Of a stretch of 64,000 nucleotides of DNA, positions 13,520 to 18,836 are shown piece by piece. Both the position numbers and the translations under genes were made by a program. The stretch's first letter is position 1, and each line of letters opens with the position of its first letter. The DNA is taken from NCBI GenBank assembly GCA_023717525.1, contig JAMQPK010000220.1, positions 1 through 64,000 on the forward strand, read 5' to 3'. The notes beneath the pieces were generated by a model. It saw only the letters and a program-made list of their open reading frames with translations. It was not told the origin of the DNA and did no database searches. The DNA is from Vicinamibacterales bacterium. GTDB lineage: Bacteria; Acidobacteriota; Vicinamibacteria; Vicinamibacterales; JAMQPK01.

Positions 13520-15778
13520 TTGAAGCTTAGCCTCCGGCTGATAGCGCTGCTCGTCGCAGGCATCACCACTGTGGTCATCGTGGCCGCGTGGAGCGAGGTG
13601 CGTGCCGAAGAGTTCGCGTTGCAGGTGGAGCTGCAGCAGCGCGCTGAAATCGTCGCCGATCGCCTTCGCGATGCCCTCGAACCAGCAATAACCTCTCAGT
13701 CTGGGAAACAGCTAGGGAGCCTCGTCGCGCGATTGGTCGCGCGCGAGAGGCTCAGCGGCCTGGTGGTTTACGACACCAACAAAGAGCCACTCGCCGCGAG
13801 CGGAGCAGTCAACGAGGCTCTGGGCAGGCACTTTGGTGTTGAAGCCGACTGTGCCGCAACTTTGCCAGGATGCGGCGAGTTCGTTTCCCTGGGTGGCCGG
13901 CCGGTGTATGCATTCACGACACCCCTGCATGGCGGCTTCAAAACGATCGGGATGCTGGCGGTGTTTCTCGACGCGAGCGCCATCAGCGCTACCTCTGGGC
14001 GCGTCTGGCGAAGCGCGGTGCTGTTCATCGTCCCTCAAGTGGCGCTGATCGCGCTGATTACGTACTTCGTCATGAGGTCAGCGGTGCTCTCGCCGATTGC
14101 ACGGACGGCGCGATGGATGAGAGATCTGCGATTTGGCCGCGCAGCACCCACCGAGGATTCAGGGAGAGGGGGTTTGCTCGACCCTATTGCGTCTGAGGCA
14201 GCCAGCCTTGTTCAAAGCCTTGTGTCGGCTCAAGCGAGCGCCGAGGCGGAGGCGCGGCTCCGTGAGGCGCACGACTCGCTTTGGACGCCCGACCGTTTGC
14301 GTGTCGGCATGCAGGAACGGTTGCGGGGCACGCGGCTGTTCGTCGTGTCCAACCGGGAGCCGTACGAGCACGTGCGCCGTGGAAGAGGCATCGAGACACT
14401 CGTTCCGGCCAGCGGTGTGGTGACGGCCCTCGAGCCCGTGTTGTGCGCGTGCGACGGCACGTGGGTGGCGCACGGCTCCGGCAACGCAGACCGCGAGGTC
14501 GTGGATCACCAGTCCCATCTGCGCGTGCCAGCCGATGATGCGCGCTACACGCTGCGTCGCGTCTGGCTTACTCCTGAAGAAGAAGAGGGCTACTACTTCG
14601 GGTTTGCGAATGAGGGGCTCTGGCCGTTGTGCCACATTGCGCATACGCGCCCGATTTTCCGCGTGGACGACTGGAACCAGTACCGGGAAGTGAATTTCAA
14701 GTTCGCGCAGGCCGTGCTCGAGGAAATGCAGAACGTCGAGCGGCCGATGCTTCTCGTCCAGGATTACCACCTCGCGTTGTTGCCGCGGCTTGTGAAAGAG
14801 GTACGGCCGGATGCCCGGGTGGCGATGTTCTGGCACATCCCCTGGCCGAATCCCGAGGCGTTCGAGATCTGCCCGTGGCAGCAGGAGTTGCTCGACGGCA
14901 TGCTTGGCGCGGACCTCGTCGGGTTCCACATTCAGGCGCACTGCCACAATTTCCTGGAGACCATCGACCGGTGCCTCGAATGCCGCGTCGAGTGGGAACG
15001 CTCGACCGTCCAGCGGCATCAGCATGCGACGGTCGTGCGGCCGTACCCGATCAGCGTGGCGTTTCCGGAGAGCACGCTAGATGAGCTCGATCGCTGGGCG
15101 GGCGCCCCAGGCCAGCCCGCCAGCCGACTGAAGTTCCAGACGGCTGCATTTCTCGGCGCCGGCGTCGACCGCGTCGACTACACAAAGGGCATCATCGAGC
15201 GTTTTCTGGGCATCGAGCGGTTTCTCGAGAAGTACCCGCAGTACCTCGAGATGTTCACATTCGTGCAAATTGGTGCGCCGAGCAGAACTCGAATCAGGCG
15301 GTATCGGGATTTCATGGCCGAAGTGCAGAACGAGGCCGATCGAATCAACCGCCGCTTCAGCACCAATGGGTGGCAGTGCATTCAGCTGCTCGGCAAGCAG
15401 CACACTCACAAGGAAATCACCGACTTGTATCGAGCGGCTCAATTGTGCCTGGTGACATCACTCCACGACGGGATGAATCTCGTGGCCAAGGAATTCGTCG
15501 CCAGCCGCGACGACGATGACGGCGTATTGATACTGAGCCAGTTCACGGGCGCAAGCCGTGAACTGCTCGACGCGTTGCGCGTCAACCCATACGACATCGA
15601 ACAGCTGGCCGAGTCGATCCGGATCGCGATCGAGATGCCACTCGAGGAGCGACAACGCCGGATGCGGCATATGCGTCGAACCGTCAAGGACCACAACGTG
15701 TATCGATGGGCCGCCGATCTCATCTCTGGGCTCGCGGAGATCCGGCTCGAGGTTCCGGATGTGACGGAGGTGCACTAG
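13520..15778 (+). CDS. otsA: Trehalose-6-phosphate synthase (GT20) fused to an N-terminal TM-periplasmic-TM/HAMP-like segment
   Basis: N-term LIALLVAGITTVVIVAAW...AVLFIVPQVALIALITYFVMRSAVLSPIARTARWMRDLRFGR; GT20 core LFVVSNREPYEHVRRG, LVQDYHLALLPRLVK, FWHIPWPNPEAFEICPW, GVDRVDYTKGIIERFLGIERFLEKYPQY, SLHDGMNLVAKEFVASR. TTG start. Confidence 0.92.
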   Translation: MKLSLRLIALLVAGITTVVIVAAWSEVRAEEFALQVELQQRAEIVADRLRDALEPAITSQSGKQLGSLVARLVARERLSGLVVYDTNKEPLAASGAVNEALGRHFGVEADCAATLPGCGEFVSLGGRPVYAFTTPLHGGFKTIGMLAVFLDASAISATSGRVWRSAVLFIVPQVALIALITYFVMRSAVLSPIARTARWMRDLRFGRAAPTEDSGRGGLLDPIASEAASLVQSLVSAQASAEAEARLREAHDSLWTPDRLRVGMQERLRGTRLFVVSNREPYEHVRRGRGIETLVPASGVVTALEPVLCACDGTWVAHGSGNADREVVDHQSHLRVPADDARYTLRRVWLTPEEEEGYYFGFANEGLWPLCHIAHTRPIFRVDDWNQYREVNFKFAQAVLEEMQNVERPMLLVQDYHLALLPRLVKEVRPDARVAMFWHIPWPNPEAFEICPWQQELLDGMLGADLVGFHIQAHCHNFLETIDRCLECRVEWERSTVQRHQHATVVRPYPISVAFPESTLDELDRWAGAPGQPASRLKFQTAAFLGAGVDRVDYTKGIIERFLGIERFLEKYPQYLEMFTFVQIGAPSRTRIRRYRDFMAEVQNEADRINRRFSTNGWQCIQLLGKQHTHKEITDLYRAAQLCLVTSLHDGMNLVAKEFVASRDDDDGVLILSQFTGASRELLDALRVNPYDIEQLAESIRIAIEMPLEERQRRMRHMRRTVKDHNVYRWAADLISGLAEIRLEVPDVTEVH

Positions 15779-15780
15779 TC

Positions 15781-16446
15781 GTGGCAGCCAACATCCGAGC
15801 GAAGCGTCCTTTCCGGTTTTCGACGGCGTCGTACATCACGCGCATCGACAACGAACGCGCGATGAACCTGGGTCAGCTGCGCGAGGGGCTGGCGCGATGC
15901 AGCGATGCGTCAGTCTTCTATCACACGTTTCAAAGCCTCGGACGCCACCACTTTCTCACCGAAGGGTTCTCCAACGATTTCGCGCAGTGGGTTCTGGCCG
16001 CCGTCAATCTTCCCGGGCTGGCAGAACAGCTTGGCGGGCTCGATATTCGAAACTACGTCGACCTCAGCACCCTTCGCAGCGATGCGCTGCGCATCATCGA
16101 TGAGTTTTGCCTCGCCCATCCGGACGATGAGAGGTCGCCCGCATTCGAGCCGTTCTACTTTCTGTCCAGCGTCGAGGTGCTGGTCCCTCTTGGCGTGGAG
16201 GCGTGGACCCTCGACGAATTTCGGTACTGGCTCGAGCGGGCCAGCCACACGTCGTTTCATTTTCATTTTCTGGTGTCACGACTCCGGTTGCATCTCCAAT
16301 CGAACGATTTTTCCGTGTGGTTCAAGGAGGAGCTCGGCCTCGAGCGGCTGGCACGCCTGACCGAACGCATCGATATCTGTACCGACACGCTCGAGGGTGG
16401 ACAGGCCAGACTCGTGGCCCTTATCGAACGGGAACTCGCCGCATGA
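15781..16446 (+). CDS. DUF5752 family protein
   Basis: GTG at 15781; VFYHTFQSLGRHHFLTEGFSNDFAQWVLAAVNLPGLAEQLGGLD, characteristic of the DUF5752 families seen next to trehalose/glycosyltransferase genes. Confidence 0.75.
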   Translation: MAANIRAKRPFRFSTASYITRIDNERAMNLGQLREGLARCSDASVFYHTFQSLGRHHFLTEGFSNDFAQWVLAAVNLPGLAEQLGGLDIRNYVDLSTLRSDALRIIDEFCLAHPDDERSPAFEPFYFLSSVEVLVPLGVEAWTLDEFRYWLERASHTSFHFHFLVSRLRLHLQSNDFSVWFKEELGLERLARLTERIDICTDTLEGGQARLVALIERELAA

Positions 16447-17672
16447 TCGCAACGACAGCGCCCCACCTCGTGTGCCTTGACGACTACGTCCCGATTCTCC
16501 GTGCGCAGGAGATCGACGATCTTCGTGCCCTCGCGAAGCGCCTTGCCGGGCGATCCGTCCAGATGGTCAATTCGACTGCCGTGGGCGGCGGCGTCGCCGA
16601 AATTCTGAACCGGCTCATCCCGCTGATGTCGGAGCTCGGCCTCGTTCCCCGATGGGATGTCATCACGGGGGGCGCCGACTTCTTCGAGATCACGAAGGCA
16701 TTTCACAACGCGCTGCATGGTGTGCCATTTGAGCCGCGCCCACATGATTTCGAGACGTTTCTCGCCTGCACCGAGCAGAATCGTCAACGCCTGCAGTTCG
16801 ACGCCGAGTTCACGGTCATCCACGACCCGCAACCAGTCGCGCTGATCGACGCCAGGCCACCGCGGTCTGGCCATTGGATCTGGCGCTGCCACATCGACCT
16901 TTCGCGACCGAACGAGGGTGTGTGGGAATTTCTCAGGCCGTTCGTCTGCAAGTACGATGGTGCGCTGTTTTCTTCGCCGGAATTTTCACAGCAGTTGCCG
17001 ATCCCGCAGTATCAGTTCTTTCCCTGCATCGATCCGCTATCGGACAAGAATCGCGAGGTCGAGGATGAAACCGTGCGCGAGGTCGTCGAACGTTTTGGCA
17101 TCGACCCCAAGCGCACGATCCTGACTCAGATCTCGCGCTTCGACAGGCTGAAGGACCCGATTGGCGTCCTCCGCGCGTACCAGATCGTCAAGCGATACGA
17201 CGATTGTCAGCTGGTGCTCGCCGGTGGCAGCGCCAGCGACGATCCGGAGGGTGGCGCCGTGCTGGCGGACGTGCGGGAAGCGGCTGGGAATGATCCAGAC
17301 GTCCACATCCTCGATCTGCCTCCGTCGAGCGCGCTCGAGATCAACGCGCTTCAGCGTGCGTCCACGATTGTCATTCAGAAGAGCCTGCGCGAAGGGTTTG
17401 GGTTGACCGTCACTGAAGCGCTGTGGAAGAAGAAGCCTGTTGTCGCGTCTGCCGTCGGGGGAATTCCGGCCCAGGTCATTCACAAGCACACAGGCTTGCT
17501 GACACACTCGGTCGAAGGCACGGCGTACCAGATCCGATTTCTACTGGCGAATCCGGCACTCGCGCAGCGGCTCGGGGAGCAGGGCCACGAACACGTTCGC
17601 GAGCACTTTCTCATTACGAGCAATGTGAGACGTTATCTGGCGTTGTTTCTCTTTCAGGCGCGGGAGAACTAG
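16443..17672 (+). CDS. treT: Trehalose glycosyltransferase synthase-like GT4 (TreT family)
   Basis: ATG 16443 overlaps the DUF5752 stop (ATGA). VNSTAVGGGVAEILNRLIPLMSELGL, FFEITKAFHNALHG, VIHDPQPVALI, WIWRCHIDLSRPN, CIDPLSDKN, SLREGFGLTVTEALWKKKPVVASAVGGI all closely match archaeal TreT motifs. Confidence 0.88.
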   Translation: MIATTAPHLVCLDDYVPILRAQEIDDLRALAKRLAGRSVQMVNSTAVGGGVAEILNRLIPLMSELGLVPRWDVITGGADFFEITKAFHNALHGVPFEPRPHDFETFLACTEQNRQRLQFDAEFTVIHDPQPVALIDARPPRSGHWIWRCHIDLSRPNEGVWEFLRPFVCKYDGALFSSPEFSQQLPIPQYQFFPCIDPLSDKNREVEDETVREVVERFGIDPKRTILTQISRFDRLKDPIGVLRAYQIVKRYDDCQLVLAGGSASDDPEGGAVLADVREAAGNDPDVHILDLPPSSALEINALQRASTIVIQKSLREGFGLTVTEALWKKKPVVASAVGGIPAQVIHKHTGLLTHSVEGTAYQIRFLLANPALAQRLGEQGHEHVREHFLITSNVRRYLALFLFQAREN

Positions 17673-18324
17673 GCTTGCCCATCAACAAGCGGTTCTTCGG
17701 CGTGATCTGGGGTGGAATGGCCTGCGTCCAGATTTGATATCCCTGTTGTGTCAGTCGCATCGCACGGACGATGTCTATCGCGACAGGACCGTCAACCCAT
17801 CCCGAGAGCCCGCCTGCATCGCCTGCGTCAAGGTCGTGACAGCACGGCAGTACCGCAACCCGCGCCGAAGCGGCGACAGCTCGATCGAGCACCAGGTCGG
17901 TAAGAGCTCCGCACGCATGGCTCGAAACGACGATGTCGGTCGGGAGAAGTTCGACGTCTTCGAGCGGACCTTCAACAAATGCAATACGCCCTGAAAGCCG
18001 CGGCCACGCAACGACGAGCGTTTCGTGCAGCCTGGCCGTCGAGACCGGCAGTTTCTTGTCGACGACGAGGGCGCTCGGCGACGAATCGTCCAGCAGGACC
18101 ATGATCTGGGCGAGCAGGCCGTGCCCTCCGGCCAGATCAATGATGCGCCCTCCGCGAAAGTGCCGTCGAACACGCCGCGCCATCTCCCAGGCTTCGTACA
18201 ACTCCTTGCGCGGCAAGCATCCAGCGTGGCAGACGGCGCGCGCCACGCGATGAAAAAGCGTGCCGCCGGGAAAGCGGCCGACGTCCCGATCGGTCAGGCG
18301 TCCGCGGGAGGCTGGTGAGAACAT
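17614..18324 (-). CDS. SAM-dependent methyltransferase-like protein
   Basis: [24 protein letters not shown] motif I-like; [19 protein letters not shown]; convergent overlap with treT 3' end. Confidence 0.6.
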
Positions 18325-18389
18325 GCATCACACAGTACACCTTGGAACCAGGATCGCGGTTGGCACGTATACAGGAGAGCGAGGTGACC

Positions 18390-18836
18390 ATGCCTGTCCG
18401 TCGACTCACTCGTCTCGGACCACAGGGTAAAATTGCCGGAGTTTGTGCGGGGCTTGCCGACTACTTCGAGACCGACGTCGTGCTTGTCCGCGCCGCGTGG
18501 CTGGTCTTGTCCATCGTGCCAGGCGCTGTCATTGGCGGTGTGCTCGCGTATGTGGCCGCATGGCTGGTGATGCCGGAGGCGACGGCGCTTCCGGCGGCCC
18601 CGCTCGGCCGGCGACTCACCCGGTCGGCGACCGACCAGAAGATCGCGGGCGTTTGTGGCGGCCTGGCCGAGTACTTTGGCATCGACGCCACGGCCGTCCG
18701 CCTCGTGTGGGCCATCCTGTCGATCCTCTTTGGGGCGGTCATTGGCGGTGTGATTGCTTACGCCGTTGCGTGGCTCATCATCCCAAGGCCGTCGGTTCAG
18801 GCGCTGCCGACTGCGGCTTCCGCATCTACTGTGTAG
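18390..18836 (+). CDS. Tandem PspC-domain protein
   Basis: Two PspC units: [40 protein letters not shown] and [43 protein letters not shown] 18390 with GGAGAGCGAGG upstream. Confidence 0.9.

Follow-up and report, generated by a model that had tools for sequence, protein, structure and literature searches.

We find that positions 13520-17672 of the window (the whole stretch of 64,000 nucleotides analysed here) carry, on the forward strand, an operon whose first product joins a receptor-like N-terminal module to a GT20 trehalose-6-phosphate (T6P) synthase, and whose second and third products are a DUF5752 protein and TreT. The parts are known ones, their combination is new, and we found no description of the design in the papers searched. 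It is probable, in our judgement, that it serves as an osmotic or envelope-stress trehalose operon, in which a receptor-type OtsA (sensor-OtsA) is gated at the envelope and the DUF5752 protein, of the OrfY family, links membrane tension to TreT. Trehalose synthesis is mostly known to be controlled through transcription and allostery; if sensor-OtsA is a receptor-built enzyme, it would let soil and groundwater bacteria respond to drying or salt at once, and at the membrane. In S. acidocaldarius, trehalose routes are induced by salt stress (PMC7688234). The genes, and the predicted parts of the first of them, are as follows.

13520..15778, + strand: sensor-OtsA, 752 aa, N-terminal receptor module and GT20 trehalose-6-phosphate synthase (PF00982 at residues 272-739; full-length relatives).
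13532..13588, + strand: predicted TM1, residues 5-23 (hydropathy 2.44; a long helix begins there in the AF2 model).
13592..14014, + strand: predicted extracytoplasmic sCache/PAS-like sensor domain, about residues 25-165 (AF2 topology; sCache_3_2 in relatives).
14018..14074, + strand: predicted TM2, residues 167-185 (hydropathy 2.41).
14075..14275, + strand: HAMP-like linker and coiled coil, residues 186-252 (profile comparison with histidine kinases; AF2 helices; HAMP Pfam match in 3 of 77 relatives).
14333..15736, + strand: GT20 catalytic domain, residues 272-739 (alignment with E. coli OtsA; Foldseek to 5jio and others).
15781..16446, + strand: DUF5752/OrfY-family protein, 221 aa, two tandem repeats of about 100 aa (PF19027; 4cso by Foldseek and profile; internal repeat by hhalign).
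16443..17672, + strand: predicted TreT, GT4 trehalose glycosyltransferring synthase, 409 aa (PF21269; 6zj4, 2x6q).

The tight coupling of the three genes described in the first-pass annotation agrees with the coordinates: the stop codon of sensor-OtsA at 15776-15778 is followed by a 2-nt gap and the GTG start of DUF5752 at 15781, and the ATG of TreT at 16443 overlaps the DUF5752 stop by 4 bp (ATGA). The TTG start codon of sensor-OtsA fits as well, because its relatives open with MKLSLRLI or MRLSLR at the same residue. No sigma-70-type promoter for the operon was found in the stretch scanned.

The first-pass annotation had read the segment preceding OtsA as a TM, an extracytoplasmic domain, a second TM and a HAMP-like segment, the layout of a receptor input module. 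Hydropathy and the AF2 model agree with that layout but not with the proposed domain length of about 110 aa, since the two hydrophobic segments, which are predicted TM helices flanking the extracytoplasmic domain, enclose about 140 residues. In the model the domain consists of a helix, two strands, a helix and three strands in a PAS/Cache-like arrangement, and the long TM/HAMP helices span residues 153-204 and 221-252, with the HAMP-like coil running from TM2 to about residue 252. The Pfam HAMP and Cache models gave no match on the window's own sensor-OtsA, and the evidence for both in this copy comes from its relatives, from profile comparison and from the structure model. Among 77 relatives, sCache_3_2 was matched in 16 (best E=1.1e-8) and dCache matches also occur. 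When the N-terminal module of these relatives was compared with histidine kinases containing HAMP, HisKA and HATPase domains, the two aligned over 260 columns (hhalign probability 99.8, E=1.3e-27), HAMP-like segment to HAMP. On these grounds the sensor domain is assigned to the Cache/PDC fold as a prediction, and the results support the N-terminus being a receptor input module homologous to those of histidine kinases. The Cache/HAMP kinases L135, L136 and L139 share this input module with sensor-OtsA; the output differs, being a sugar-biosynthesis enzyme rather than a kinase, cyclase or methyl-accepting domain. The sensor domain evolves fast, and the cue may therefore vary from one homologue to another. 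The HAMP signature is weak, and it is shortened in one group (L033, L034, L117-L119).

A mis-assembled or chance fusion, which the first-pass annotation had named as a possible weakness, was rejected, because fusion and gene order are both found again in other phyla: the N-module HMM detects the module in all of the 80 top-ranking relatives, which come from over ten phyla and two of which are non-MAG records (Edaphobacter aggregans and Niastella soli), and one full-length relative is 64% identical. Within the phylum, the same HMM matches in about 31 of 297 genomes. The module might serve only to anchor OtsA at the membrane, as a degenerate kinase input module holding it near a channel, an exporter or TreT with no gating of catalysis. 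One TM helix would suffice for anchoring, and what is kept across phyla is two TMs, the fold of the sensor, the HAMP-like coil and a linker with invariant W255 and L260; we regard this reading as rather unlikely, despite the few Pfam HAMP matches (3/77), the weak HAMP signature, shortened in the group named above, and the existence of close OtsA relatives without the module (L006-L010).

PF00982 covers residues 272-739 with E=5.6e-114, from profile position 2 to 472 of 473, and alignment with E. coli OtsA indicates that the acceptor-, donor- and catalytic-site residues are conserved, among them those contacting G6P and NDP-glucose (residue roles from PMC6879718). These active-site residues are conserved whether or not a member has OtsB, and by sequence the OtsA active site of the window protein is intact. 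Catalytic domain, fold and substrate-contact residues are thus common to sensor-OtsA and the OtsA proteins of E. coli and M. thermoresistibile, from which it differs by the extension of about 265 residues (TM-Cache-TM-HAMP-like) and by its RDGMN motif, in which a conserved His replaces the Arg that corresponds to the allosteric Arg384 of mycobacteria (PMC6879718). Since it scores 417.5 bits with the NCBIfam OtsA equivalog model TIGR02400, below the cut-off of 564.85, we file it as GT20/OtsA-like: by sequence, a divergent subfamily and not an equivalog of TIGR02400. This low score and the Arg-to-His replacement could mean that the GT20 domain makes another glucosyl phosphate, such as glucosylglycerol-phosphate, and that OtsB is dispensable for that reason. 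We consider this very improbable, because the residues that contact G6P in the OtsA of E. coli and Mycobacterium are retained, with or without OtsB, and the usual neighbour of sensor-OtsA is OtsB; the score with the glucosylglycerol-phosphate synthase model (290) also lies below its cut-off (569).

The gene order sensor-OtsA, (OtsB), OrfY/DUF5752, TreT is, judged from the loci compared, conserved over many phyla. Complete operons most often read sensor-OtsA > OtsB > DUF5752 > TreT, as in 21 loci; ten have OtsA > DUF5752 > TreT, as in the window, and six contain all four genes reordered. The window operon is, on this comparison, a recurrent OtsB-less variant. The earlier remark that no OtsB is seen in the window was borne out and extends to the whole genome assembly (about 95% complete), where neither PF02358 nor a profile built from the OtsB proteins of sister operons, which scores about 1e-90 on controls, gave a match; a hidden OtsB elsewhere in this genome was accordingly rejected. 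A Cof-type HAD protein was likewise dismissed as a substitute phosphatase, PF08282 giving only short partial matches inside open frames of about 850 aa. TreY and TreS were absent from the genome above cut-off. OtsB was found nowhere in nine of the ten genomes with the window-type operon, and its presence or absence changed at least six times independently on the tree. We rejected the idea that OtsB is lost strictly where DUF5752 and TreT adjoin, as 8 of 18 genomes with a solitary sensor-OtsA are also without it; four of these eight are small Patescibacteria MAGs.

The repeated absence of OtsB beside an intact OtsA raises the question of the fate of T6P, which poisons M. tuberculosis when it accumulates for lack of OtsB2 (PMC5148154). 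Sensor-OtsA might serve mainly to produce T6P as an osmotic second messenger whose target would be DUF5752, TreT or something else, with TreT making the bulk of the trehalose. In Arthrobacter, T6P acts as a signal in morphogenesis (PMC5685639), and the genome-wide lack of OtsB, with its repeated changes on the tree, would fit such a role. Receptor-type architecture is, moreover, typical of second-messenger enzymes. Against this, most operons place OtsB beside sensor-OtsA, as expected for plain biosynthesis, an unrelated phosphatase could stand in for OtsB, and the toxicity in M. tuberculosis argues against T6P build-up; we hold this reading to be improbable.

Returning to an envelope-gated trehalose operon, the third gene supports the assignment made in the first-pass annotation of a second trehalose-forming enzyme, of the TreT type. 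It matches PF21269 (E=2.6e-50), contains both the TreT_GT1 N-domain and Glycos_transf_1, and resembles over its full length, including the EGFGLTVTE motif, the solved TreT structures of the Thermoproteales type (6zj4, E=1.6e-120) and of P. horikoshii (2x6q, E=1.9e-98). It differs from Thermococcales TreT in falling below the cut-off of the corresponding NCBIfam model (362.8 against 775), and a distant TreT homologue in S. acidocaldarius can be a TPS instead (PMC7688234). These similarities support its prediction as a trehalose glycosyltransferring synthase.

DUF5752 had been put forward as a possible missing catalytic partner, a suggestion that we judge wrong or outdated. The window protein (PF19027, E=1.5e-46) matches OrfY of Thermoproteus tenax (PDB 4cso) both by Foldseek (E=1.1e-16, TM 0.87) and by profile (E=1.1e-47), and we place it in the OrfY family by sequence and fold; its two repeats align with each other at E=8.6e-25 (hhalign). 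It is not a simple replacement for OtsB, because the two coexist in more than 20 operons; the solved fold, moreover, is non-HAD. It goes with TreT: the co-occurrence check suggested earlier revealed that the DUF5752 gene lies directly upstream of TreT in 33/33 loci, and TreT is present in 31/31 genomes with DUF5752 as against 9/266 others (Fisher p=2.5e-34). In three loci (L165, L170, L199) an MscS-type mechanosensitive channel and DUF5752, in this order, form one fusion protein, and separate MscS genes adjoin the operon in L163, L176 and L107; the window's own operon has none. DUF5752 thus appears tied to TreT and MscS channels rather than to OtsA. Whereas OrfY shares its family and fold, the bacterial members seen sit in TreT operons, and the MscS fusions with the constant TreT pairing provide a functional lead for this Pfam family. 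Searches of open-licence papers for DUF5752, for OtsA with a HAMP or sensor domain and for OrfY of T. tenax yielded nothing relevant.

From these elements we infer how catalysis may be gated, what the cue may be and what may become of T6P in the window operon. The extracytoplasmic domain of sensor-OtsA would read an envelope cue (a ligand, osmolarity or membrane tension), and the signal would cross TM2 and the HAMP-like coil to alter the dimer arrangement or the opening of the GT20 domains, so that T6P would be produced at the membrane when needed. The DUF5752 gene always lies ahead of TreT and in three loci is joined to an MscS channel; on these grounds OrfY/DUF5752 may be a non-enzymatic, cytoplasmic, turgor-responsive regulator or adaptor of TreT. 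In the OtsB-less variant trehalose would come mainly from TreT, and the T6P made by sensor-OtsA would be dephosphorylated by another phosphatase or act as a regulatory metabolite. A bolder reading, which we think less likely than not, is that a sugar-biosynthesis enzyme is here the direct output of a transmembrane Cache/HAMP receptor, an envelope cue giving T6P in one step without a kinase or transcription, that OrfY/DUF5752 couples mechanosensitive channels to TreT, and that T6P is a signal rather than an intermediate in OtsB-less lineages. Sensor-OtsA would offer a direct test of how a Cache/HAMP module can drive a glycosyltransferase.

The msc-gt-tpsp operon of T. tenax offers a precedent, by likeness in gene content only: it brings together a GT20 synthase, a GT4 protein and an MscS-type protein, and there the GT20 synthase becomes activated on forming a complex with the GT4 protein (PMC3634074). 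That GT4 protein is described as PimA-like and not as TreT, the OtsA is fused to OtsB, and neither a receptor module nor DUF5752 is described there (PMC3634074).

The PDB depositors of 4cso labelled OrfY a transcription factor, a label under which DUF5752 would regulate genes instead of acting as an adaptor. A CASP10 target paper is said to contain the description of OrfY.

The three trehalose genes described in the first-pass annotation as tightly coupled were confirmed in layout and by Pfam:

13520 to a stop ending at 15778, + strand: sensor-OtsA, TTG start, GT20
GTG at 15781, + strand: DUF5752, 2 nt after the sensor-OtsA stop
start overlapping the DUF5752 stop by 4 bp, + strand: TreT (TreT_GT1 and Glycos_transf_1)

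The TTG start is supported by the relatives of sensor-OtsA, whose MKLSLRLI-like N-terminal sequences begin at the same residue. The proposed TreT-type enzyme was corroborated by solved TreT structures, which align with it across its full length. Beyond the operon, some 0.6 kb further downstream, 18315-18833 (+ strand) encodes an envelope-stress type protein with two tandem PspC domains (PF04024, E=9.9e-41).

Residues 5-23 and 167-185 of sensor-OtsA are strongly hydrophobic and flank a stretch of ~140 residues. Pfam placed no sensor model on the window's own copy; in the module alignment, sCache_3_2 was matched in 16 of 77 sequences (best 1.1e-8), dCache_3 in 9/77 and HAMP in 3/77. Comparison of the fusion alignment with 297 genomes of the phylum, Acidobacteriota, also retrieved ~500-aa proteins, via residues 1-240 only. 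Three of the four tested proved to be histidine kinases (HAMP, HisKA, HATPase); for the fourth, Pfam returned no match. The kinases, at three related loci, are:

L135:389-1897, histidine kinase with the input module
L136:1973-3481, histidine kinase with the input module
L139:2074-3651, histidine kinase with the input module

Profile-profile alignment of the module with these three kinases (probability 99.8, E=1.3e-27, 260 columns) extends through TM2 and HAMP, and the module is thus common to kinases and a metabolic enzyme. In the AlphaFold prediction (mean pLDDT 82.5), the first helix is long and is followed by a Cache-like sheet (two strands, helix, three strands); TM2 is a helix that continues into a coil, and after a further coil helix comes the GT20 domain, with Foldseek confirming OtsA. 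The membrane-receptor architecture initially proposed therefore holds by hydrophobicity, kinase match and predicted fold, though not by a Pfam sensor model on the window copy. The module may gate trehalose synthesis in response to a cue.

The same fusion was found in relatives, with full-length copies in about 31/297 genomes of the phylum, a count that includes a few incomplete copies or copies divided between reading frames. Among named genomes, 80 loci were recovered, and an HMM detected the module in every one; being the best 80 among at least 582 relatives, they form a selected sample and give no rate. They belong to Acidobacteriota, Elusimicrobiota, Nitrospirota, Omnitrophota, Methylomirabilota, Rokubacteria, Bacteroidota, Verrucomicrobiota, Gemmatimonadota, Thermodesulfobacteriota, Edwardsbacteria and Patescibacteria, and on the tree, close OtsA relatives that lack the module group apart. 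OtsA of the receptor type, encoded in a trehalose operon, is real, conserved and widespread. The order is sensor-OtsA, OtsB, DUF5752, TreT in 21/80 loci and that of the window, without OtsB, in 10/80; DUF5752–TreT stands in front in 4/80, and OtsB is last in 2/80. Retention of gene order between phyla argues that the operon is a functional unit. In Patescibacteria (Daviesbacteria, Levybacteria), a ~378-aa GT4-like gene follows sensor-OtsA in place of OtsB/TreT, and OtsB was not found in these two genomes:

L204:10148-11284, GT4-like gene
L209:10212-11345, GT4-like gene

The absence of OtsB from the window was borne out and extends to the whole genome (95% complete), where neither Pfam nor a subfamily profile detected it and TreY and TreS gave nothing above cut-off. 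OtsB is likewise absent genome-wide from 9 of the 10 genomes with the window-type operon, and present in all comparison genomes (three controls with operonic OtsB and the nearest relative, L142). Gaps in metagenome-assembled genomes may account for single cases but hardly for all. To explain the OtsB-less state on the GT20 tree, 9 changes are required, of which no fewer than 6 fall on starred branches; OtsB-less members retain the catalytic and acceptor-site residues of OtsA. Since accumulation of trehalose-6-phosphate is toxic in M. tuberculosis without OtsB2 and tolerated by fungal mutants (PMC5148154), the involvement of a different phosphatase, or a role of this product as a signal, must be considered.

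Among described systems, the T. tenax msc-gt-tpsp operon comes nearest and is similar in kind of gene content; there, a GT4 protein forms a complex with the GT20 enzyme and thereby activates it (PMC3634074). The receptor module, TreT and DUF5752 lie outside that description. In S. acidocaldarius, salt induces trehalose routes; the same organism serves as a caution that TreT-like enzymes can differ in acceptor (PMC7688234). Arthrobacter OtsA has been called, in another sense, an osmotic sensor (PMC5685639). The open-licence literature yielded no description of a Cache/HAMP-OtsA fusion; the parts are known, and their combination is apparently undescribed. The analysis shows homology, gene order and conservation, whereas gating, its cue, the role of DUF5752 and the fate of trehalose-6-phosphate are inferred.

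DUF5752 belongs to the OrfY family, as it matches T. tenax 4cso, deposited as 'ORFY PROTEIN, TRANSCRIPTION FACTOR', by Foldseek (TM 0.87, E=1.1e-16) and by profile (E=1.1e-47). It consists of two units repeated in tandem, which hhalign matches to each other (99.6, E=8.6e-25). TreT is present in 31/31 genomes with full-length DUF5752 (297 genomes; Fisher p=2.5e-34) and, by coordinates, directly downstream on the same strand in 33/33 DUF5752 loci. At three loci, two in Nitrospirota, a single gene directly upstream of TreT encodes the TM helices and beta-domain of an MscS channel followed by DUF5752:

L165:5267-6643, MscS–DUF5752 fusion
L170:5281-6654, MscS–DUF5752 fusion
L199:8762-10150, MscS–DUF5752 fusion

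A separate MscS gene adjoins the operon at three further loci (L163, L176, L107). These fusions and neighbours, with the TreT pairing, tie the family to osmotic control and TreT, and DUF5752 of the window might act there. Open frames of ~1000 aa in L140 (1209-4217, + strand) and about 35 other genomes contain partial DUF5752 matches, mostly to a single half-unit; in the one frame tested, the match is flanked by a response-receiver domain and a PPDK_N domain. Such a half-unit may represent the single precursor that was duplicated to give OrfY.
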